Shown here: piece by piece, positions 21,719 through 31,599 of the stretch
Position numbering within the stretch: position 1 is the first letter of the stretch
How the letters are laid out: each line of letters opens with the position of its first letter
The notes under the pieces: generated by a model
What the model was told of the DNA's origin: nothing
Database searches by the model: none
What the model saw: the letters and a program-made list of their open reading frames with translations, nothing else
Position numbers and translations under genes: made by a program
Origin: Pedobacter sp. SYSU D00535
Lineage (GTDB): Bacteria; Bacteroidota; Bacteroidia; Sphingobacteriales; Sphingobacteriaceae
Length of the DNA stretch: 64,000 bases
NCBI RefSeq assembly: GCF_017355855.1
Contig: NZ_JAFEWD010000001.1
Span: 558,001 to 622,000, forward strand
Direction of reading: 5' to 3'

Positions 21719-22084
21719 ATGAAAAGAGTTTTAATTGTTGACGATGATTCAGATATAATTGACCTGGTTTCCTTGATTTTGGAAGAGGCTGGGTTTCAAG
21801 TAATTGTTTCAAGTCAACAATCCTTGATAAAAGATATCTATAGATACAAACCGGGTCTCATACTATACGACGGTTGGAAAAAGCAAAAAGAAGATTTCCA
21901 GGTATTAAGTCAAGTGAAACGCGATAAGATTTGCAGCCGAATCCCTATCATTTTATTCTCTACCGCCACCGATCTTCCGTCGCTTGCTCAGGCCTATCAA
22001 ACTGATTCTTATTTGGATAAACCCTTTGAGCTTGACCAATTGGTGGACGCGGTACGCAATTGCTACAACCTGCAGTACCAATAG
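21719..22084 (+). CDS. Single-domain response regulator (CheY-like receiver)
   Basis: The 121-residue protein is one receiver domain: acidic pocket in LIVDDDSDIID (about 5-15), phosphoacceptor Asp in PGLILYDGWKK near residue 53, conserved Ser/Thr in ILFSTATD near 83, and conserved Lys in LDKPFELDQ near 102. There is no output domain, so it acts by protein contact or in a phosphorelay. No cognate kinase is adjacent. It converges on the Ser/Thr kinase operon, its stop lying two bases from the kinase stop. Confidence 0.88.
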   Translation: MKRVLIVDDDSDIIDLVSLILEEAGFQVIVSSQQSLIKDIYRYKPGLILYDGWKKQKEDFQVLSQVKRDKICSRIPIILFSTATDLPSLAQAYQTDSYLDKPFELDQLVDAVRNCYNLQYQ

Positions 22085-22086
22085 GC

Positions 22087-23754
22087 CTAATTAATCCGTT
22101 TCAAATCTTTTTTACGTAACCATCCTTTAGTGACCTGCCCCTGCGTATTGAAAAAGACGACATAGATGAAGCCATTTTTTTCTTCCACCGCTGTTAGCTC
22201 GGCATTATTCCAATGCACCAGAAAGGCGTTTCGGCGTGTGCTTTCATCAGGCTGATCATGGAAATACGCTTTATTTACCGCCAGCGTATACTTCTTCTTG
22301 TTTTTCAACTCCTCCAGATGTTCTTGCTGCTCTTTGGTGGCATCCGCCTCTGACGCTGGCTCTGCCTCCTCCGGTTGTTGTTCTTCTTCACCCAGCAAGC
22401 TGTCCTGTTCCGCCTCCGGCTGCTCTGATACGGTCATTGTATCCTCGCGCCGAATCTCCTCAACCGGGATATCATTTGCAGGAAGATCACGCGATGCAGT
22501 GCTAGTGGTGTCCTCGTCGCGAGCAAGGGAATCAAAAGAGAGGCTATTCTCCGCCTTAGCATTTTTATCAGAGAAAAACGAAAAAGCTGCAAAGGCACCA
22601 AGCCCGACCACCAGAAAGATCAGAGCAAAGAGTGCGGTTTTAGAAATACTTACCGATGATGAATCCGCCAGCACCGCCGTACCGGCAGATCCGTCTTCAT
22701 TATTGGCGAGCATGCGCCGCAAGCGCTCAATTTCCTGATCCTTCTGCCTGCTCTCCTGCTCGTATTTTAGGACTTGACTTTGCAACTGAGAAATCTCAGT
22801 TTGAACAGCTGCAGCACTCCCTAGCGCAGCCCCCGTGTTTTCTGCCGATTTCGTGCTGTTAATAAGGATGGCCTCATGTAACTTAACTCCGTCCTCGTAG
22901 CGATTTTCAGGTTTCTTTTCCAGGCACTTGCCAATGACTTCGAGCAGCCATCCCGGAACCTGCATCTCCCGCTCCCTCCGCTCGTCCGACCAGCTTTTGG
23001 GCATGTTCGCTCTCCTCAACGACATCAGGTCGGGAACGGGCGTTTCCATATGGGAAAGCATCACTGTATTTCTGTTTGTTTCTCCCCCATCCTGCAAGGG
23101 AAAGGGAACCTGACCGGCGAGTAGTTCATATAACACCACCCCAAAGCTGTAGACGTCTGTTTGAAACAACATCTTGCCTTCGTTTTGCTCTGGCGCCATG
23201 AACTCTATGGCACCAGCATGGCGTAAGCTGGTTCTGCGCTGCTCGTCGGACATTACCGCCAAACCGAAATCCAGCAATACATAATTGGCCGTATGGATAT
23301 TGAACTTAACATTATTGCTTTTGATATCTCCGTGCTTCACTCCCACCTTATGACAATGCGCAATGGCCCCTGAAAGTTGATCAGCTACTTTGATCACCTC
23401 TCGGACGCTGAACAAAGGGTCGTGCGGAGACTTCAGGAGCTCTTCTAGGTCGGGGCCCTCGATGAACTCCATTTCAATAAAGGGGAAAGAACCGCTTTCC
23501 GTTATTCCGGAATTTAAAATCTTCACCACATTTGGATTAGGAACTTCATTTACTTTCTTCAGCTTCAAAACCTCGTTCTGAAAGCTTTGGAAATTCTTGT
23601 CCTCGGTGCTCTCCGCGTGAATCGGAGTAGGAAGAATTTTAACGGCTGTAAAAATCTCTCCTACCCTGCGCCCCTTGTATACAGAACCCTGTCCGCCGGT
23701 ACGCAGTGCCCCCATGTTCTCTAATCCTTCTGTTATTGTAAATACCCTTGCCAT
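22087..23754 (-). CDS. Transmembrane serine/threonine protein kinase with C-terminal SH3-like domain
   Basis: 555 residues. The kinase domain (about 12-295) shows a Gly loop (GGQGSVYKG), the ATP-binding Lys39 (TAVKI), catalytic loop HGDIKSNN (H141, D143, N148), DFG at 162-164 and APE at 187-189. The usual HRD arginine is Gly142, so it is a non-RD kinase and may not need activation-loop phosphorylation. A coiled coil (about 316-350), one transmembrane helix (about 371-395), a Glu-rich periplasmic linker and a final SH3b-like domain (about 490-555) follow. The plan resembles PknB-type envelope sensors. It is the last gene of the operon with FHA, SEDS-PBP and PP2C genes, 8 bases after the FHA gene. 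Confidence 0.92.
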   Translation of the reverse strand: MARVFTITEGLENMGALRTGGQGSVYKGRRVGEIFTAVKILPTPIHAESTEDKNFQSFQNEVLKLKKVNEVPNPNVVKILNSGITESGSFPFIEMEFIEGPDLEELLKSPHDPLFSVREVIKVADQLSGAIAHCHKVGVKHGDIKSNNVKFNIHTANYVLLDFGLAVMSDEQRRTSLRHAGAIEFMAPEQNEGKMLFQTDVYSFGVVLYELLAGQVPFPLQDGGETNRNTVMLSHMETPVPDLMSLRRANMPKSWSDERREREMQVPGWLLEVIGKCLEKKPENRYEDGVKLHEAILINSTKSAENTGAALGSAAAVQTEISQLQSQVLKYEQESRQKDQEIERLRRMLANNEDGSAGTAVLADSSSVSISKTALFALIFLVVGLGAFAAFSFFSDKNAKAENSLSFDSLARDEDTTSTASRDLPANDIPVEEIRREDTMTVSEQPEAEQDSLLGEEEQQPEEAEPASEADATKEQQEHLEELKNKKKYTLAVNKAYFHDQPDESTRRNAFLVHWNNAELTAVEEKNGFIYVVFFNTQGQVTKGWLRKKDLKRIN

Positions 23755-23762
23755 TCTATCTA

Positions 23763-24551
23763 TTATTGCTGATCCGGTACATAGTAAAACTCCAGAACAG
23801 CCGTCTCTCCAATAATTATCTGATCGCCGTCGTGCAGCTTATGACCAATCTCGATCGAGTTAAGTTTAATCAGCTCATCATTTAAGGCCGATTTAATTTT
23901 TACCTTGTTTCTCGGCGGCACGCCCCCTTCGTCCGCAAACAATAAGAAACAGGAGCTCTCGCTATTCCATTCAATATGGGCGTGTTGCCTGCTGATGTAC
24001 TTATTAGCCTCGTCAGCTGAATCTGCCGGAAAAGCAATCGTGTTGATCCTGAAGAAGCCATCTTCCATCTGAGCTTTCCGCTCGCGGCCTATCGTTACCT
24101 TTTTACCGTCCGACCGTATCAGATATTCCTCTTGTTCAGCCTCTCCGCTCAAAATGGATATTTTTGCAGAGGAAGTCCGCTGGAGCACGCTTTCACGAGT
24201 CCGGATAAACAAAGCCGCATCAATTCCTTCAATCTCCTTAGCCTCCTTTGGCAGTGCATCAACAAAGACAATATCCAGGGCCCAATCTGCGGGGAGGTCG
24301 ATGGCGAAGTCGTCTGCAATTCTTTGTACTTCTGCCTTAAATCTTCCTGCTTCATGAATATAAACAGCCGATTCATAAATATGTTGCTCATCTCTACCAG
24401 GAGCCAGAAACAAGTTGATCCCCCGGATGTGCCCGCCTTCCCCTCCTTCCAGCTTCTGCAGCTCGTCTTTCACCGCCCTCAACAGGAAGTCGCGGTAGCC
24501 TTTGGCATCTTCAGGCTTATTCTCTGTATCATTATCGAAAAAGTTAAACAT
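23763..24551 (-). CDS. FHA-domain protein of the kinase operon
   Basis: The 262-residue soluble protein has an N-terminal alpha/beta region (about 1-125) and a C-terminal FHA domain (about 150-255) with the phosphothreonine-binding signature KVTIGRERK, then YISRQHAHIEWN (Ser-Arg-x-His) and KLHDGDQIIIGETAVLEF. FHA domains bind phosphothreonine peptides, so this is the likely reader of the adjacent kinase. The N-terminal part is reminiscent in position of the non-FHA domain of actinobacterial FhaA, but I could not assign a family. It lies 8 bases before the kinase and 49 bases after the SEDS-PBP gene. Confidence 0.85.
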   Translation of the reverse strand: MFNFFDNDTENKPEDAKGYRDFLLRAVKDELQKLEGGEGGHIRGINLFLAPGRDEQHIYESAVYIHEAGRFKAEVQRIADDFAIDLPADWALDIVFVDALPKEAKEIEGIDAALFIRTRESVLQRTSSAKISILSGEAEQEEYLIRSDGKKVTIGRERKAQMEDGFFRINTIAFPADSADEANKYISRQHAHIEWNSESSCFLLFADEGGVPPRNKVKIKSALNDELIKLNSIEIGHKLHDGDQIIIGETAVLEFYYVPDQQ

Positions 24552-24600
24552 TATTGTGTGTGCTAATCATCTTAATATAACATTCAAAGTATAGTCCGGT

Positions 24601-27600
24601 TTACATCGGACGCCGTCTGTTCAAAACTTGAGTCATCTGCTCCTGAACTACCATGGTACTATCTGTCGGCCGGTTGGGGACAGGTGCAGGTGCAGGTGAA
24701 ACGGGTACAAAACCTTTGATGTAGCCCTTTTGTAGTAGAATTGGCAGTACGTGTTTCCCAGCCAAAGCCACTGCATCCGAGGAACCTTTTGTAGCCTCGA
24801 TCCGGATACAGGTAACGATGTAACCTGGCCCGATCGCTTTTGGAGCAAAGAAAACATACCATCCATCATTGATGCGCTCACCCTTCCAGACACGTTCTGG
24901 TGTGCCGGTTTTTCCCGCTACGGAAATGCCTAACTGGGCGACTTTATTTTCACTCTGCTTGATCATATATTCTTTGATCGAGGCTGCAAAAGCAGGATCC
25001 TTGGCAAGTTTCACGCCACCGCTTACCGATAATACCGAGTCGCTAATTTTCTGCACATACCTATTCTTCACAAGCATTCCGTTGTTTGCTATTCCGGCTG
25101 CTAAACGTGCTACCGCAGCTGGGGTAGCTACCAACTCGCCCTGTCCCCATGACATCCCTGAAATTCCTTTGGCCCGCGTGCGTCTTATATTATTGGGATC
25201 GTACTTCGGCTTTGTATTAAATTCAGTCCGCCGCCATAGCGCCTGCCACTTATCTTCCCTGGCTCCGGGTTCCTCCTGGCGTCCGTAGTAAAACCCGCCC
25301 ACGCCGTGTAAAAACATTCCTGTCTTTATATACAAGTCCGTCATCTCATTTTGCAACGCCTTTTCATTTGCCAGCTTTATGTAGAAAACGTTATTCGACT
25401 TAACCAAAGCCCGCTCCATCGAAATATTTCCTGTTTCATCTGGTTCGGGGCCACGTGTCCGGATACGCTCATTAGGAGCAACGGGATAAGTAAGATCGGC
25501 GGCAGCCATACCCAGCTTGTTAAATGCGGCCAGGGTAGTAGCGATTTTAGCGGTAGAACCAGGTTGAGTGGCATAAGTAAATCCCAAATCAGCTGTAGTC
25601 GTCCATCCCGCCAGACGGTTTTGCTCCCTGGAGGTCATCGTCAACAGCTCCCAGTTTTTTAGAGGAGGAAGCGGATAGACGGCCGAGGCAAGAACATCGC
25701 CACTGCTCGCCTCCATCACCACCACCGACACCCGGTTGTCCTTCAGAGAATCGTCGAGAGCAATGGATTTCTGAATACTGGTCTGCAAAGAGGCGTCCAT
25801 GGTTAGCTGCACGTCCCGATTTCGTTTTTTAAACTCCTCCACTTTCCTACTGTTAATACCTGCAAGCAGCAAGGGGGCTAATGCACTATAATCTCTTTTG
25901 GACACTGTCATTTCCTTTACTCCTCTTGGAAGAAAACGGTCTTCCCGGTAAGCACTGGCAATCACATCATAAGAGGTAGTAGGTGTCTCGAAACCTCGCA
26001 ACTCTGCCGCGTGTTCATATTCGGCAAAATAACCATTCGTGCTTCCGTAAAAGACTCCTGAGTTGGCGTCTCCCGTCCAGAAAAACATATGTTCGGCGAA
26101 GGGATAATACCGGTCGAGGCGCTTATGCATAGCAGAATCAAGATTATAGGATATGCCAGATGCTGAAAGTATTGATCTTTGTTGTTTAATTAACTCAGGC
26201 TTGCTGGTTGCCAGAATTCTTCCGTTCCGGTCGTACAATGAACCAGCTTGCAACTTATTCATCAGGATAGCAATGCGAGGGTTATAGCTAAACATCCTGC
26301 TGCCGCTTCTGTCGGCTACCAGCGCCGGCTGAACCACCCATTTCTTGTTACGGAAGAGGTAGCGGGAAACATTGATAGTAAGTAGGAAAACACCGATACA
26401 GGCTGCTGCTAGGGCCGGAATCAAATTCCTGTCTTGTTGTTTTGTTACGTAAGACATTTGGACCGCTGTCCCTTTTGCCATGGATGCCGAAAGCAAGAAT
26501 CCTGCGGCTAGCATATTAGCCACTAAAGAAGAGCCGCCGTAGCTTACAAAAGGCAGCGAGACTCCTGACAGTGGCAGTGCCCCCGTTGAGCCTCCTGCAA
26601 TCAACAAGAACTGCACGAACGTGCTGATTCCTATCCCTGCACAGAGATAGAACAGGAAAGGCGTCCCTGTCTGTCGTCCCACTAGTATGGAGCGGTGTAG
26701 ATAAACCAGGAACAGGATAAAAATGCAGATAATACCTGTCCAGCCAAATTCCTCGCCTAATGCTGGCAATACCATATCGGTGTGGGCTTCGGGGATAGTT
26801 TTGGCAAACCCTTCTCCTACTCCCTGCCCGGTTAATCCGCCACTCGCCATCGCCCAAATACCATTCGCTACGTGGTCGCCGCCAAACACTTCGTTATTCC
26901 AGGCATCTTCCCAAATTGCCTTCCGCTCCACCAACCGCCGCATAGGCCCCGGGAAAAGCTCAGCTAAATAAGGGATTTGATCCAGCAGCAAAAAACTTCC
27001 GATAACTACCAGAGCCATTACGGAAGACTCACTCAACTGTCGCCGTTTCCACAGCGATACTCCGGCAAGAATGACGATGGTAACCAGCGTTGCGACCCAT
27101 ATTGAGGTGAAGATCCAGGCAGACAACACGTAGAGAACAACCGATGCTGCCATGAACATAAAGTCGCCACGCGAAAACGAAAACAGGACAATGAAGGTGA
27201 AACAAATCACCATTGCAGGACCTAAATCGCCGAGCACCAGAAAGAAAAAGATCGATACGAGAATTGCGATAAGCGCGAACGAAAAGAACGTCCAGCGCTT
27301 TTTCCAATTCGTGTATTCACTGATAAACCGCTCGTTTGTGGCAAAGAAACCGGCGAGAAACAAAATGATTGAATACTTAACCAGTTCACTTGGCTGGAAT
27401 CCGAAAAGATTCACCTTTACACCGCTACCCTCCGGTCCTGCTCCAAAAAGAATGGTAAGAAACAAAAGACCTGTCGCCAGGACAGCCCATGGCCAGCCAT
27501 TGGCAGCTTTTTTATTGTTCCGAAAAATGAAGAGGCGGTATAGAGGAGAATCAACAGTAAATCGACGAATGTTAAACATCATCAGGACTCCGATAATCAC

Positions 27601-28752
27601 CACACCGATGCCGAAATAAATCAAAGTGTCCTTTGCCAGAAAACGATCCCGCAGCGGGTCTTGCAAACTCAGCAGGGTGATAAATGAAAGCCCGGTCAAC
27701 AGCATGAGGATCGGCAGGATCAGTGGATCTGCCTGTTTGAATCGCACAGTAAAAAGAAGATGTAACAGAAAAAAGCCCAAAAAGAACCCGGCGACAATGA
27801 TTCCATACCAGGAGTTGTACTCTTTCGGAGTTCGAACAATTAACGATCGCTCCTTTTTCAGGATATTAAAATCGCGGGTAGACAGGAGACGAACCGTATG
27901 AGGCGCCTGGTAGAAGTCAAAAGTTTCAGTACCGTCCAGTTCCTGCACTCCCTGCGACTGGCCGAACTGAAACCCGGGTTGCAATGGCAACACTTCAAAG
28001 GCTTTATCCGCCGGCAATCCTGCAAATGAATAGCGACCGTTCTTGTCCGTTCTCGCATAGGCTGTTAGGGATTGAAGTTGACGGTTATTGGCGGAATCAA
28101 GCAGGTAAGTCCTTCGAAAGTCCTCTCCCTTCTCCACTACAGACTTAAAAACCTGGGTCACTTCTTCGCTGTAAGCACTATCCTGTGGAAGAATCATCTC
28201 CAATCTCACAAGCACTCCGGATACAGCCTCGTCGTCTTTGTTGAGAACCTGACCTTTTATACGGTTTGATCCCATCCCTACGTTCGTCTCAGCATTTACA
28301 GCCATCGGGCTTGTCCTCTCCGTTACGAAAAGAGCAGAATCCGCACCTGTATAGCCGAGGAAAGAACGTGAGGCAGTCACCCGCTTTTTAAATGACTCCC
28401 CTCCGCTTTGAAAGGCATCATCCGCAACTACATAATATTTCCGCTTATTTAGTTCCCCAATGTTATCTATCTGATTTGTCTCCGAACTACGCACTTTGCC
28501 CACTACCGAGGAGATGAGCTCTATGTCTTTTTTCTCTTCGAAATAATAACCCTTCTGCAGCAAGGTCCTGATCCCTTCAGAAATATTAAGACTGTTCAAA
28601 TTTACCATAGTTCCGGCCTTTAGCCGCTGCGCTACGTCTTCGAAATCGCGCTGGTGTACGCTGTATAGCTGAAAAAAAAGCAATCCCAACACAAGCGTAT
28701 TGAGCAGTAAAAACAAACGTTCGGTACCTCTTCTATTAGTATTTTCTGTCAT
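24601..28752 (-). CDS. SEDS glycosyltransferase (FtsW/RodA) fused to class B penicillin-binding protein
   Basis: 1383 residues. A membrane helix at 12-30 is followed by an extracytoplasmic region (about 35-310) holding a carboxypeptidase-regulatory/prealbumin-like beta domain (about 163-260; RIKGQVLNKDDEAVSGVLV, RTDKNGRYSFAGLP). A SEDS module (about 315-765) has PSELVKY, the catalytic-loop EAHTD (D659, matching the essential RodA/FtsW Asp) and the signature SLPFVSYGGSSL. A helix at 778-797 leads into a PBP: dimerisation-type region (about 835-960) and transpeptidase (about 1000-1345) with S1066-TAK, S1119-NN and K1281-TG. All catalytic motifs of both enzymes are intact, so one chain can polymerise and crosslink peptidoglycan. 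A Pro-rich tail ends it. SEDS and PBP are normally separate proteins. Confidence 0.95.
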   Translation of the reverse strand: MTENTNRRGTERLFLLLNTLVLGLLFFQLYSVHQRDFEDVAQRLKAGTMVNLNSLNISEGIRTLLQKGYYFEEKKDIELISSVVGKVRSSETNQIDNIGELNKRKYYVVADDAFQSGGESFKKRVTASRSFLGYTGADSALFVTERTSPMAVNAETNVGMGSNRIKGQVLNKDDEAVSGVLVRLEMILPQDSAYSEEVTQVFKSVVEKGEDFRRTYLLDSANNRQLQSLTAYARTDKNGRYSFAGLPADKAFEVLPLQPGFQFGQSQGVQELDGTETFDFYQAPHTVRLLSTRDFNILKKERSLIVRTPKEYNSWYGIIVAGFFLGFFLLHLLFTVRFKQADPLILPILMLLTGLSFITLLSLQDPLRDRFLAKDTLIYFGIGVVIIGVLMMFNIRRFTVDSPLYRLFIFRNNKKAANGWPWAVLATGLLFLTILFGAGPEGSGVKVNLFGFQPSELVKYSIILFLAGFFATNERFISEYTNWKKRWTFFSFALIAILVSIFFFLVLGDLGPAMVICFTFIVLFSFSRGDFMFMAASVVLYVLSAWIFTSIWVATLVTIVILAGVSLWKRRQLSESSVMALVVIGSFLLLDQIPYLAELFPGPMRRLVERKAIWEDAWNNEVFGGDHVANGIWAMASGGLTGQGVGEGFAKTIPEAHTDMVLPALGEEFGWTGIICIFILFLVYLHRSILVGRQTGTPFLFYLCAGIGISTFVQFLLIAGGSTGALPLSGVSLPFVSYGGSSLVANMLAAGFLLSASMAKGTAVQMSYVTKQQDRNLIPALAAACIGVFLLTINVSRYLFRNKKWVVQPALVADRSGSRMFSYNPRIAILMNKLQAGSLYDRNGRILATSKPELIKQQRSILSASGISYNLDSAMHKRLDRYYPFAEHMFFWTGDANSGVFYGSTNGYFAEYEHAAELRGFETPTTSYDVIASAYREDRFLPRGVKEMTVSKRDYSALAPLLLAGINSRKVEEFKKRNRDVQLTMDASLQTSIQKSIALDDSLKDNRVSVVVMEASSGDVLASAVYPLPPLKNWELLTMTSREQNRLAGWTTTADLGFTYATQPGSTAKIATTLAAFNKLGMAAADLTYPVAPNERIRTRGPEPDETGNISMERALVKSNNVFYIKLANEKALQNEMTDLYIKTGMFLHGVGGFYYGRQEEPGAREDKWQALWRRTEFNTKPKYDPNNIRRTRAKGISGMSWGQGELVATPAAVARLAAGIANNGMLVKNRYVQKISDSVLSVSGGVKLAKDPAFAASIKEYMIKQSENKVAQLGISVAGKTGTPERVWKGERINDGWYVFFAPKAIGPGYIVTCIRIEATKGSSDAVALAGKHVLPILLQKGYIKGFVPVSPAPAPVPNRPTDSTMVVQEQMTQVLNRRRPM

Positions 28753-28761
28753 TGTTGCATT

Positions 28762-29871
28762 CTATTCGATTACTGGATCCACCCTTTTAGTGGTATCCAT
28801 AAGTATTAAACTGTCACTCGCCATTCCTTCCTCCGTCGCACTTTGTTCTGTAGTATCAGGTGTTGGGGCCTTTTCATTTTCAGAGCCACCCCTGTTGGTG
28901 AGCAAGAAAATGATCACAAGCAGAAATATCAGGCAAAGCCCGGCCAGAACAAAAACATAGGGATTGTAGCTTTTCTTTACAGGCTGCTGTACCGGCTGAC
29001 CCTCTAGGGGCTTTGATACAATCACTTGAGGGGGTACGGAGACAGGTTGTGGCTTTGCTTCGTTAAGCGGCCGTTTCACTTGCCGGTTTTTGGGTGGTTT
29101 GATCACCTTCGCCTTCACCGGCTTTTTACTGTTATGGACGAGTACGACGGTGATATTATCCTTTCCACCGTTTTGATTGGCTGCCGACACCAGTTGGTTT
29201 CCCTTTTGTTCCAGACTGGAAGCGCTGCTCAATATCGAGGTGATTTCATGCTTATTAACCAGATCGGTAAGACCATCGCTGCATAGCAGCAAAGTATCTC
29301 CGGGAAGAAAAGGCGACTGTCCCGTCTCGATATAATCCTTCTGAAGTTGTATCTGTTGGCCGAAGCCAAGCGCCTTGTTGATTTCGTTCCGTTTGGGATG
29401 CTTCATCGCAGATTCTTCCGACAGCCGGCCGCTATCCTCGAGGAAGCCAACAAAAGAATGATCTTTGGTCACCTTCACTAATGAATGATCGCGAAGCAGA
29501 TAGAGCCGTGTATCACCCACGTGGGCATAATAAAACAGGTTATTCTCTACGTCCACTACAGCCAGCGTTAGTACGCAGGCCATCTTATCATACTGCTTTA
29601 TCTGCTGCTTCTCTTCCTGTATGCGTTCATTAGCGGAGGAAAAAGCTTCCTTCATTGTATTGATAATGTTGGAAACCGGCTCCTTCAAATGCCTCTGAAT
29701 GGCGTCCTTTGCAATAGCTGCAGCTACCTCTCCACCCACATATCCTCCAACGCCGTCGATCACACAAGCGATAATGAAGCGATCGCCCATCGCCTTTTCG
29801 GCAATAAAGGTATCTTCATTATTGTCGCGAAGCTTGCCAGTATCCGTAATCCCAAAGAAATTTTCAGCCAT
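28762..29871 (-). CDS. PP2C-type Ser/Thr protein phosphatase with membrane anchor
   Basis: 369 residues. The PP2C domain (about 1-250) shows the metal-binding motifs GKLRDNNEDTF (D16/E19/D20), VIDGVGGYVGGEVA (D39-G40), LLCSDGLTDLV and GGKDNITVVLV, the full set for a manganese-dependent phosphatase. A basic Pro-rich linker, one transmembrane helix (about 302-325) and a short acidic tail follow. It is the counterpart of PstP and probably reverses the kinase of the same operon. Only 9 bases separate it from the SEDS-PBP gene. Confidence 0.93.
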   Translation of the reverse strand: MAENFFGITDTGKLRDNNEDTFIAEKAMGDRFIIACVIDGVGGYVGGEVAAAIAKDAIQRHLKEPVSNIINTMKEAFSSANERIQEEKQQIKQYDKMACVLTLAVVDVENNLFYYAHVGDTRLYLLRDHSLVKVTKDHSFVGFLEDSGRLSEESAMKHPKRNEINKALGFGQQIQLQKDYIETGQSPFLPGDTLLLCSDGLTDLVNKHEITSILSSASSLEQKGNQLVSAANQNGGKDNITVVLVHNSKKPVKAKVIKPPKNRQVKRPLNEAKPQPVSVPPQVIVSKPLEGQPVQQPVKKSYNPYVFVLAGLCLIFLLVIIFLLTNRGGSENEKAPTPDTTEQSATEEGMASDSLILMDTTKRVDPVIE

Positions 29872-29963
29872 TGCGCTTATGAGTATTTTTTATATCCCTG
29901 AAATGCATGATCAGCAGGAAAATGCATATGGCCAGGAGAGAAGCTGATAAAATATATGACATA

Positions 29964-30920
29964 CTAGGATTTGAAAATATTTACACCCACGATCCCATTC
30001 AGCAACATCCGCGAATTGACGGGAAGTTCTGTCCACTCCGGTTTATCCGCGTCGCTTCTTTTTACTTCCCGCTCGTTAAGCAGCGTTTTTTCACCGAAGG
30101 ATGCCAGGTAAAAGCGGTCTTCCTTCTTGTTATACTTGATGCGTAAGTGCGGTGAATCCACCCAATCGGATGGAATTTTGAAAATAAAGGACCCTTCCCG
30201 TGTTTCATCTTTGCCAGAAATCAGGATGTCTTCATCCTTCATGAAAAACTCTACTTTTTTTCCGGCAAAAGCTTTATCGGGAACAATGGTTTCAAAGCGA
30301 GCAAAGCCGTTCACATTTCCGGTGGTGGTAGTGCTGCGCTCATCATACTCCAGCTCGTTGATATAGGGAAGTTCGTAATAGCCCTCGCTATAAAAGGTAA
30401 AGCCTTTCAGCACATCCTGGCTTACATCAAACGTTTCCGCAATCCCTGTCTGTCTCGGTATAAAAGTGACCCTCAGATTTTCCTCTTTCTGCGTACCACC
30501 ACCTGGAAGCAACTTGCCGATAAACCCTTTGTCGCCCGGACCATAATCGGGATGTGAGACAAAACGGAACACCCACTTGCTGCTGGATGGCTCTACTGTT
30601 TTTCCCTGGCTCGCGTGCTCCTGCAAAATCTCATAAAACTTCTTAACCGACTCGTGCACGATAATACCGAAGATGCCTTTGCGGTTATCCATAAAAAGCC
30701 TGTAATCGTCCTGATTGAAGCTGATGATGAACTCGTGATAGAAAACCACCCGGTCGCCGAAAGAAAGCTCCGCGATTGATTCTTTAAATTTTTCAATGAT
30801 ATATTTATAGACGTCGTTGGGCGTCATGGTTTGTGGACTATTTAGAGCTGAGGTACCCTCATCGCTCAAAAACCACTCGTGTAACCCAATACGTTGCCAA
30901 AAAGATGGTTTCTCGTTCAT
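29964..30920 (-). CDS. FHA-like accessory protein, first gene of the kinase operon
   Basis: 318 residues from the ATG at 30920 (the frame runs 11 codons further to a TTG). No signal or membrane segment. The N-terminal part (about 30-120) has FYHEFIISFNQDDYRLFMDN and a following helix, reminiscent of the DUF3662 region of actinobacterial FhaA. The C-terminal 75 residues (SPHLRIKYNKKEDRFYLASF ... NSRMLLNGIVGVNIFKS) follow the strand order of a degenerate FHA domain but lack the Ser-x-x-His core, so phosphothreonine binding is doubtful. Both links are my inference from pattern only. It precedes the PP2C gene by 92 bases. Confidence 0.55.
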   Translation of the reverse strand: MNEKPSFWQRIGLHEWFLSDEGTSALNSPQTMTPNDVYKYIIEKFKESIAELSFGDRVVFYHEFIISFNQDDYRLFMDNRKGIFGIIVHESVKKFYEILQEHASQGKTVEPSSSKWVFRFVSHPDYGPGDKGFIGKLLPGGGTQKEENLRVTFIPRQTGIAETFDVSQDVLKGFTFYSEGYYELPYINELEYDERSTTTTGNVNGFARFETIVPDKAFAGKKVEFFMKDEDILISGKDETREGSFIFKIPSDWVDSPHLRIKYNKKEDRFYLASFGEKTLLNEREVKRSDADKPEWTELPVNSRMLLNGIVGVNIFKS

Positions 30921-31035: not shown

Positions 31036-31599
31036 CTACTTCTTCATCTCTTCCAGCTTCTTGATGCAGTCGTCAACCGTGCTTCTGGCAATTTGATACA
31101 GCTGCCAGTTTCCGTCGGGTATTACCTTTAGCAAGTTGCGGCATTCCCGGATAAAAACGGATCCAAAATCAGGATCTCTCTCAACAATCTCCTTGCAGTT
31201 ATCAATAATATCAGCATACTTAATCGTTTGAGAATCTGGACTAGTAACTTTAATTCTTGCTGCCTCCTTCGTCTTGCGCTTCCGACGGTTCCATTGGGGA
31301 TATTTATCCTTTACATAAACGTCGGTAAGCTCAACAACCAGTTTGACAGCTCTTTCCGCCTGCTCATTTCCCAATAAGCCGAGCAAAAAATTGAAGATTT
31401 CTTCCTTCCTGACAGGCGTATCCTCTAGCACATCATGCAGCAAGGCAGCAGCCAGGATTGGAAGATCATTGGTATAGGCTTGGCAAATTTCCATTACCCT
31501 AATGGGATGAACGATATACCGATCGGGTGTATATTTCCGTGTCTGATCGCCATGTGCCCTATCGGCGAAGTTTTTTATCTGTTCGAGAACCGCCTCCAT
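31036..31599 (-). CDS. HD-domain phosphohydrolase, Mesh1/small alarmone hydrolase-like
   Basis: 187 residues forming one HD domain. RKYTPDRYIVHPIRVMEI supplies the first His, AAALLHDVLEDTPV the HD pair and the ED motif, and the later SQTIKYADIIDNCKEI the final Asp; this is the RelA/SpoT hydrolase pattern in the short Mesh1 form. It may hydrolyse (p)ppGpp or NADPH-type substrates. There is no synthetase domain. It lies 115 bases upstream of the kinase operon on the same strand, but I saw no proof that it is co-transcribed. Confidence 0.75.
   Translation of the reverse strand: MEAVLEQIKNFADRAHGDQTRKYTPDRYIVHPIRVMEICQAYTNDLPILAAALLHDVLEDTPVRKEEIFNFLLGLLGNEQAERAVKLVVELTDVYVKDKYPQWNRRKRKTKEAARIKVTSPDSQTIKYADIIDNCKEIVERDPDFGSVFIRECRNLLKVIPDGNWQLYQIARSTVDDCIKKLEEMKK

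Follow-up and report, generated by a model that had tools for sequence, protein, structure and literature searches.

A Bacteroidota gene module joining a Ser/Thr kinase, a PP2C phosphatase and FHA proteins to a SEDS-PBP fusion: a putative phospho-switched accessory peptidoglycan synthase

The described system closest to the locus reported here is the actinobacterial gene run fhaA-fhaB-pstP-rodA-pbpA-pknA-pknB, as described in two papers (PMC6554272, PMC11898655). In mycobacteria, pstP is reported to be co-transcribed with rodA and pbpA, and knock-down of this operon to alter the wall (PMC6554272). We analyzed a stretch of 64,000 nucleotides from Pedobacter sp. SYSU D00535 (contig NZ_JAFEWD010000001.1, positions 558,001 to 622,000; hereafter the window) that carries on its minus strand genes for a Hanks-type Ser/Thr kinase, a PP2C phosphatase, two FHA-type proteins (FHAa and FHAd), a fusion of a SEDS polymerase with a class B penicillin-binding protein (PBP) and a membrane peptide of 32 amino acids (aa). 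Judged from sequence comparison, it is fairly likely that all six together make up an accessory module for peptidoglycan synthesis that is switched by phosphorylation, with an ancestry probably shared with the actinobacterial locus. The mycobacterial pstP-rodA-pbpA operon may serve as a model for this Bacteroidota module, not as proof.

Natural SEDS-PBP fusions in a single open reading frame (ORF) are already mentioned in print (PMC10449877, citing a Rhodococcus genome paper), and engineered fusions are stated to be active (PMC10449877, PMC6207328). Like these, the module's fusion would combine polymerase and transpeptidase in one polypeptide, whereas it adds an N-terminal extracytoplasmic domain and sits in a putative kinase/phosphatase/FHA operon; for the natural fusion this comparison extends to its mention in the source. 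The type VI secretion threonine phosphorylation pathway PpkA-PppA-Fha likewise links a kinase, a PP2C phosphatase and an FHA reader, whereas here these are tied to a peptidoglycan synthase. Among the titles and abstract openings listed in searches of PMC, none described the module or how widely it occurs, the lineage of its SEDS part, or the 32-aa peptide.

The earlier note on this DNA had read five minus-strand genes between 22087 and 30920, separated by 92, 9, 49 and 8 bases, and the ORF positions bear this out. All five are present, and the count rises to six, i.e., the 92-base gap holds the gene for the conserved membrane peptide. Pfam matches agree with the identities given for kinase, FHA protein (FHAd, just under the cut-off), SEDS plus transpeptidase, and PP2C; polymerase and transpeptidase are indeed one protein of 1383 aa with PF01098 (2.7e-46) and PF00905 (1.4e-23). 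The first gene (30920), described as FHA-like, deserves this name by its fold only, as the window protein has no Pfam match. The module comprises:

29964..30920, minus strand: FHAa, 318 aa, with an N-terminal domain (possibly FhaA_N-like) and a C-terminal FHA fold that looks degenerate
29864..29962, minus strand: membrane peptide MSYILSASLLAICIFLLIMHFRDIKNTHKRNG, 32 aa, single helix; its stop overlaps the PP2C start
28762..29871, minus strand: PP2C phosphatase, 369 aa, one membrane helix (residues 306-324)
24601..28752, minus strand: SEDS-PBP fusion, 1383 aa, PF01098 and PF00905
23763..24551, minus strand: FHAd, 262 aa, N-terminal alpha/beta domain and FHA domain with intact phosphothreonine (pThr) pocket
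22087..23754, minus strand: Hanks-type Ser/Thr kinase, PF00069, one membrane helix (375-393) and an extracytoplasmic tail of unknown family

For FHAa we chose the ATG at 30920 as start; the ORF list begins the gene at TTG 30953.

We fetched 36 Bacteroidota loci by match to the fusion or to FHAa, i.e., from a hand-picked 24 of 44 matching genomes, 11 named contigs and one plasmid. FHAa, PP2C and fusion lie on one strand in all 36, joined by FHAd in 35 and a kinase in 34; the loci lacking FHAd or kinase are cut by contig ends (L046 for both, L037 for the kinase). The earlier note had suggested checking related genomes for co-occurrence of the five families, and this is what the 36 loci display, with exceptions only at contig ends. 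The 14 loci reached via the fusion all hold FHAa and PP2C, with FHAd in 13 and a kinase in 12 and the gaps again at contig ends, and the 21 reached via FHAa all hold fusion, PP2C, FHAd and kinase. The linkage of the module genes is far beyond chance. The order of FHAa, PP2C, fusion and FHAd is constant throughout, and the kinases vary in number and place.

The FHAa profile matched 10 of 395 genomes of the phylum sample, 40 of 201 of the family sample (7 of 25 genera) and 11 of 395 of the class sample, samples that overlap; one of the 11 class matches is probably due to chance (G741, 9.1e-4, four stops). The two other genomes of the window's genus had no FHAa. A full fusion occurred in 4 of 41 genomes, the same four that carry FHAa, and the listed family genomes without a match have neither. 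Named carriers are Mucilaginibacter, Pedobacter, Flaviaesturariibacter, Flavisolibacter, a Chitinophagales bacterium and two "Bacteroidetes bacterium" records; Spirosoma oryzicola bears a copy on a plasmid. The flanks differ from locus to locus, with no family among 219 flanking ORFs within 6 kb found in more than 4 of the 36 loci. By these comparisons the module is portable and sporadic in distribution. A clean empty site in the same genus was not obtained, as no other window gene lay around the best BrkB match (G001) or the best match of the neighboring HD-domain gene (G002). Three records labelled plasmids look like chromosomes or parts of chromosomes (NZ_LT559118, 11.85 Mb; NZ_CP030101, 2.9 Mb; NZ_LR134456, 402 kb with core wall genes).

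In five actinobacterial loci (Tsukamurella L109, Actinomyces L110, Nonomuraea L111, Nocardia L112, Arthrobacter L129) we found fhaA-fhaB-pstP-rodA-pbpA-pknA-pknB on one strand. In many Bacteroidota loci the genes, arranged as FHAa-peptide-PP2C-SEDS::PBP-FHAd-kinase(s), are almost collinear with this run. The earlier statement that the order differs therefore holds for the second FHA gene and the kinases, which move, and fails for FHAa, phosphatase, SEDS and PBP, which keep the order and strand of all five. Its claim that the functional set is the same as in Actinobacteria was strengthened by this core order and by the SEDS grouping given below, and the PBP tree does not settle the ancestry. 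The two systems thus share the set itself, with FhaA/FHAa, phosphatase, SEDS and PBP on one strand and often a kinase downstream, as well as the SEDS lineage; the window genome's phosphatase, too, is the only one of its Pfam family. They differ in that the module's SEDS and PBP are fused and carry an added N-terminal domain, a 32-aa membrane peptide fills the fhaB slot and a second FHA protein follows the PBP. Moreover, the module lacks PASTA domains in the kinases scanned, its kinases are movable, and it is sporadic and additional to ordinary RodA/FtsW.

A tree of 46 SEDS rows placed the module, seven actinobacterial SEDS and an FHA-linked SEDS of Monoglobus on one side of a branch (100/99; 100/98.5 after removal of four unsure rows), with two plasmid-borne actinobacterial FtsW on the other. 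Five of the seven actinobacterial rows come from complete fhaA-pknB loci and two (Embleya, Streptomyces 1435) from outside such loci. In approximately unbiased (AU) tests, a grouping of module SEDS with Bacteroidota RodA was rejected (p=0.0009), and with Bacteroidota FtsW less strongly (p=0.022). In the trees module rows were thinned to 10 of 35 for SEDS and 11 of 35 for PBP, the Rhodococcus ruber row was shortened to 460 aa, that of Nocardia was trimmed, and Arthrobacter is represented by half a gene. A 787-aa "FtsW" of an R. ruber plasmid was discarded as a natural fusion, being SEDS only.

The Monoglobus protein belongs to a run of three genes, FHA - FtsW/RodA - PBP, in Monoglobus pectinilyticus (Clostridia; NZ_OY725743, L116 5864-8849). 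The SEDS and the PBP of this run group with RodA and PbpA of Actinobacteria, respectively. As in the module, FHA, SEDS and class B PBP are adjacent and the SEDS groups with module and actinobacterial RodA, whereas SEDS and PBP are separate there and kinase and phosphatase were not found: none is annotated in 15.8 kb, and tblastn with the actinobacterial ones found none in this stretch.

FHAa could extend the resemblance to FhaA. We found no membrane helix in it, and Pfam recognized an FHA domain in 6 of 32 aligned relatives (the alignments omit near-copies and one truncated row, leaving 32 of 36 FHAa and 32 of 35 FHAd). In an AlphaFold model (mean confidence score pLDDT 44) the C-terminal part has an FHA fold, with FHA rows at probabilities up to 1.00 and Z up to 6.6. 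H258 and N282 are kept in 32/32, the residue at the pocket Ser position varies, being S in 6, T in 19, A in 3, N in 3 and K in 1 of the 32, and, read from the alignment, a Gly-Arg pair was not discerned in the window protein; the FHA part looks degenerate. The first non-FHA Foldseek match of the model, at rank 6 (probability 0.72), was 2lc0, the N-terminal domain of M. tuberculosis FhaA (Rv0020c); the VIA-align rows covered the FHA part only and hence do not list it. In hhalign, the FHAa N-terminal part scored 21.1 against four actinobacterial FhaA_N sequences, above 200/200 column shuffles. Homology of FHAa to FhaA_N is at most suggested. The same comparison rejected the FHAd N-terminal domain as a second FhaA_N, as 29 of 200 shuffles scored as high, and searching PDB sequences with the profiles of FHAa and FHAd turned up no credible relative. 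The FhaA N-domain is stated to resemble no known protein in a passage of one paper (PMC11898655). According to part of another, the N-domain of Corynebacterium diphtheriae FhaA is essential and its FHA domain apparently dispensable (PMC10166564); a weakening of the FHA part in FHAa would be in line with this.

Several results weigh against the reading of the locus as a phospho-switched synthase module that shares ancestry with the actinobacterial one. The SEDS trees are unrooted and the module stem is long, such that long-branch effects are possible, and raw SEDS profile scores are mixed (Monoglobus 123, Tsukamurella 122, Nocardia 111, Rossellomorea FtsW 110 bits). In the PBP tree, a clade of module, PbpA and Monoglobus was neither found nor rejected (p=0.446); module with PbpA alone was nearly rejected (p=0.078) and module with Bacteroidota PBP2 was rejected (p=0.023). 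The Foldseek match to 2lc0 is weak (E 0.13, root-mean-square deviation 5.8) and the query model is of low confidence. FhaA_N (PF12401) matched 0/32 FHAa up to E 10, whole-profile hhalign of FHAa against FhaA_N gave a probability of 1.6% (P 0.032), and 2 of 25 unrelated real segments outscored the FHAa N-terminal part (31.2 and 26.1; overlapping transpeptidase windows). Three Spirosoma-type loci have their kinases between PP2C and fusion. Finally, promoter-like sites are no more frequent than chance predicts (12 against 12.4) and terminator-like sites only slightly more so (16 against 12.1), and the operon therefore rests on gene spacing.

Cassettes of kinase, PP2C and FHA genes are common and have joined different machines, such as type VI secretion or PASTA systems. 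The Bacteroidota module might hence have recruited its SEDS-PBP fusion independently of the actinobacterial locus, by convergent assembly, and regulation would then work alike. The PBP tree that does not unite module and PbpA, the missing Pfam FhaA_N match, the mixed SEDS ranking and the absence of PASTA from the four kinases scanned speak for it; we nonetheless consider it unlikely in view of the SEDS tree with its AU tests, the core order and strand that the module shares with five actinobacterial loci and the Foldseek match of the FHAa N-terminal part to the Rv0020c domain. Because of SEDS lineage and core gene order, shared ancestry is probably the better explanation of these sequences.

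The fusion is laid out as helix 1, an extracytoplasmic domain of about 280 aa with a sub-threshold CarboxypepD_reg match, SEDS polymerase, PBP helix and transpeptidase. The Asp of the SEDS PxxHTD motif is catalytic, and H657 T658 D659 are present in 14/14 aligned fusions together with S1066xxK1069, SNN1119 and K[TS]G1281. Pfam found no GT51 domain in the window fusion, which has the class B motifs SxxK, SxN and K[ST]G. Elsewhere in the window genome, SEDS and transpeptidase genes lie within 5 kb on one contig (C18) and side by side on another (C16), and the trees place these pairs as FtsW/FtsI and RodA/PBP2, with long FtsI branches. By this placement the fusion is a synthase additional to the host's ordinary FtsW/FtsI and RodA/PBP2. 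We therefore rejected the module as the host's basic elongation or growth locus: ordinary RodA/FtsW pairs are present, the module is absent from most genomes sampled, and the synthase is extra and found in sporadic genomes. Three more transpeptidase ORFs of the window genome (778-827 aa) match class A PBPs in size. A 1686-aa open frame in another genome (G032) proved not to be a fusion, as two neighboring ORFs are present there, one of 440 aa for SEDS and a transpeptidase-like one of 663 aa.

An extra SEDS-class B PBP pair that is sporadic and, in one copy, plasmid-borne could also be a stress back-up, switched on by envelope damage or beta-lactams, with a PBP that is active when PBP2 or FtsI is blocked. 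This is a variant of the accessory-synthase explanation rather than its opposite. PASTA kinases govern cephalosporin resistance in enterococci, and the module's transpeptidase matches MecA-type models (E 2.8e-5 and weaker). These matches are, however, far below the cut-offs and reflect generic transpeptidase similarity, and no conserved regulator stands beside the module, its commonest neighbor families occurring in 4 of 36 loci. We regard the back-up role as somewhat unlikely.

The kinase matched PF00069 with E 8.7e-33, and its catalytic residues are invariant in 18/18 aligned kinases, taken from the first 15 loci with the Spirosoma kinases left out. No PASTA domain was found by Pfam in four kinases (window, L041, L048, L088), and the NCBIfam PASTA kinase model gave 151 bits, under its cut-off of 450. 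Kinase tails are highly variable (window tail 22087-22530); by our own reading, 4 of 15 aligned loci have an SH3-like tail, with no Pfam match, and the second kinases of L041 and L042 carry a further region. Two Hanks kinases of the window genome exceed the Pfam cut-off, i.e., the module's own and one away from the operon (contig C12, 376259-377068) that reaches 682 bits with the profile of the module kinases; a third, weak match of 24 bits stays under the cut-off. The phosphatase matched PF13672 (E 2.9e-14) and is the only one of this family in the genome; it reached 214 bits with the NCBIfam Stp1/IreP model, under the cut-off of 230, and its metal-site Asp residues are invariant in 14/14. 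As far as these models detect it, the writer/eraser repertoire of the window genome is module-type. Longer PP2C relatives (about 450-510 aa; L047, L049, L088 and others) have, in our reading, a repeat-like extracytoplasmic C-terminal domain past the helix, which is missing from the PP2C of the window (369 aa), L090 (354) and L091 (364). Given this domain of the longer relatives, a sensor may be located on the phosphatase. FHAd just missed PF00498 (E 8.7e-4, 20.1 bits, cut-off 20.7), and its pThr pocket G155 R156 S187 R188 H190 is kept in 32/32 aligned.

In the PADLOC collection the kinase matched the PD-T4-6 and MAD6 kinase models (best E 2.3e-44), which together with the sporadic distribution would suit an anti-phage or conflict system whose kinase senses infection and whose other genes supply effector and control parts. 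In our judgement these matches reflect generic Hanks-kinase similarity. Fusion and FHAd had no PADLOC match at E 0.01, those of PP2C and FHAa were weak (1.8e-7 and 0.0046), a peptidoglycan synthase is unlikely as an effector, and no relative turned up when viral contigs were scanned once with the FHAa profile. We hold such a defense role to be highly improbable.

The gap between FHAa and PP2C is nearly constant across many loci. It holds a small hydrophobic ORF as peptide candidate in 36/36 loci. A strict rule (ATG ORF, 27-45 aa, start within about 12 bases of the upstream stop) was met by 34 of 36 of these gaps versus 1 of 70 other same-strand gaps in the loci, and the ORF in this lone control gap is not hydrophobic. 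The two failures are candidates of 23 aa, 61 bases after FHAa (L090), and of 22 aa, 33 bases after it (L091). Thirty-two of the 36 candidates share the motif HFx[DE]IK, and 31 of these 32 have Ser or Thr two residues past IK; other ends are HFQDLPR in two Spirosoma-type forms and HFRNLPQ in L090, and L091 is only loosely alike. We computed rates of nonsynonymous (dN) and synonymous (dS) change for 24 peptides of 32 aa. In all 114 pairs with 0<dS<2.5, out of 274 computed and not independent, dN was below dS (median ratio 0.19), and third codon positions differ most (4869 versus 3160 and 1816). By these measures the peptide gene is under purifying selection. It has no Pfam match, and its only NCBIfam match is a sub-threshold one to a holin (E 0.084).

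Basic tails of membrane proteins are expected in the cytosol (positive-inside rule), and the peptide's basic tail should therefore be cytosolic. The gene lies at the exact site of actinobacterial fhaB, whose product has an N-terminal membrane helix, and one possibility is that FhaB was split, with the peptide as its now separate membrane anchor. The conserved Ser/Thr on the cytosolic side of the peptide could act as a phospho-switch that brings FHAd to the synthase. A wider proposal is that the FHA-linked SEDS of Actinobacteria, some Clostridia and Bacteroidota form a single lineage, separate from both FtsW and RodA and designed to be controlled through Ser/Thr phosphorylation, which in Bacteroidota became a mobile one-protein synthase partnered by the 32-aa peptide, perhaps a detached FhaB anchor with a phospho-switch Ser/Thr; this we consider quite doubtful.

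For the module as an accessory, phospho-switched synthase, we infer a single transcript, the phosphorylation targets, the direction of control and the conditions of use as part of the following scheme. The fusion would polymerize and cross-link peptidoglycan beside the FtsW/FtsI and RodA/PBP2 pairs of the host. Hanks kinases in the membrane, one or two per module, would phosphorylate Ser/Thr on cytosolic parts of the module, with the synthase's cytosolic N-terminus, the loop connecting SEDS and PBP, the kinase activation loop and the Ser/Thr of the peptide's cytosolic tail as proposed sites. FHAd, with its intact pThr pocket, would dock on the phosphorylated form, FHAa would act as scaffold, and the membrane PP2C would reset the switch. 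If this is true, phospho-control of wall synthesis would be a portable module and not a Gram-positive specialty, and would run a third peptidoglycan synthase in Gram-negatives. The module would then be a compact test bed for the control of SEDS-class B PBP enzymes by kinase, FHA reader and phosphatase, much studied in mycobacteria, because polymerase and transpeptidase are one protein, no other PF13672 phosphatase is present and only module-type Hanks kinases exceed the Pfam cut-off. The 32-aa membrane peptide would be a new component that is directly testable.

We found no tandem repeats, and the composition has no clear break. The next gene upstream of the module, also on the minus strand, encodes an HD-domain protein (31036-31599), MESH1/SpoT-hydrolase-like by our own reading, with a 61% match in one of the two module-less relatives of the genus. 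On the other side, a stand-alone response regulator receiver (21719-22084, plus) is convergent with the kinase gene, two bases away.

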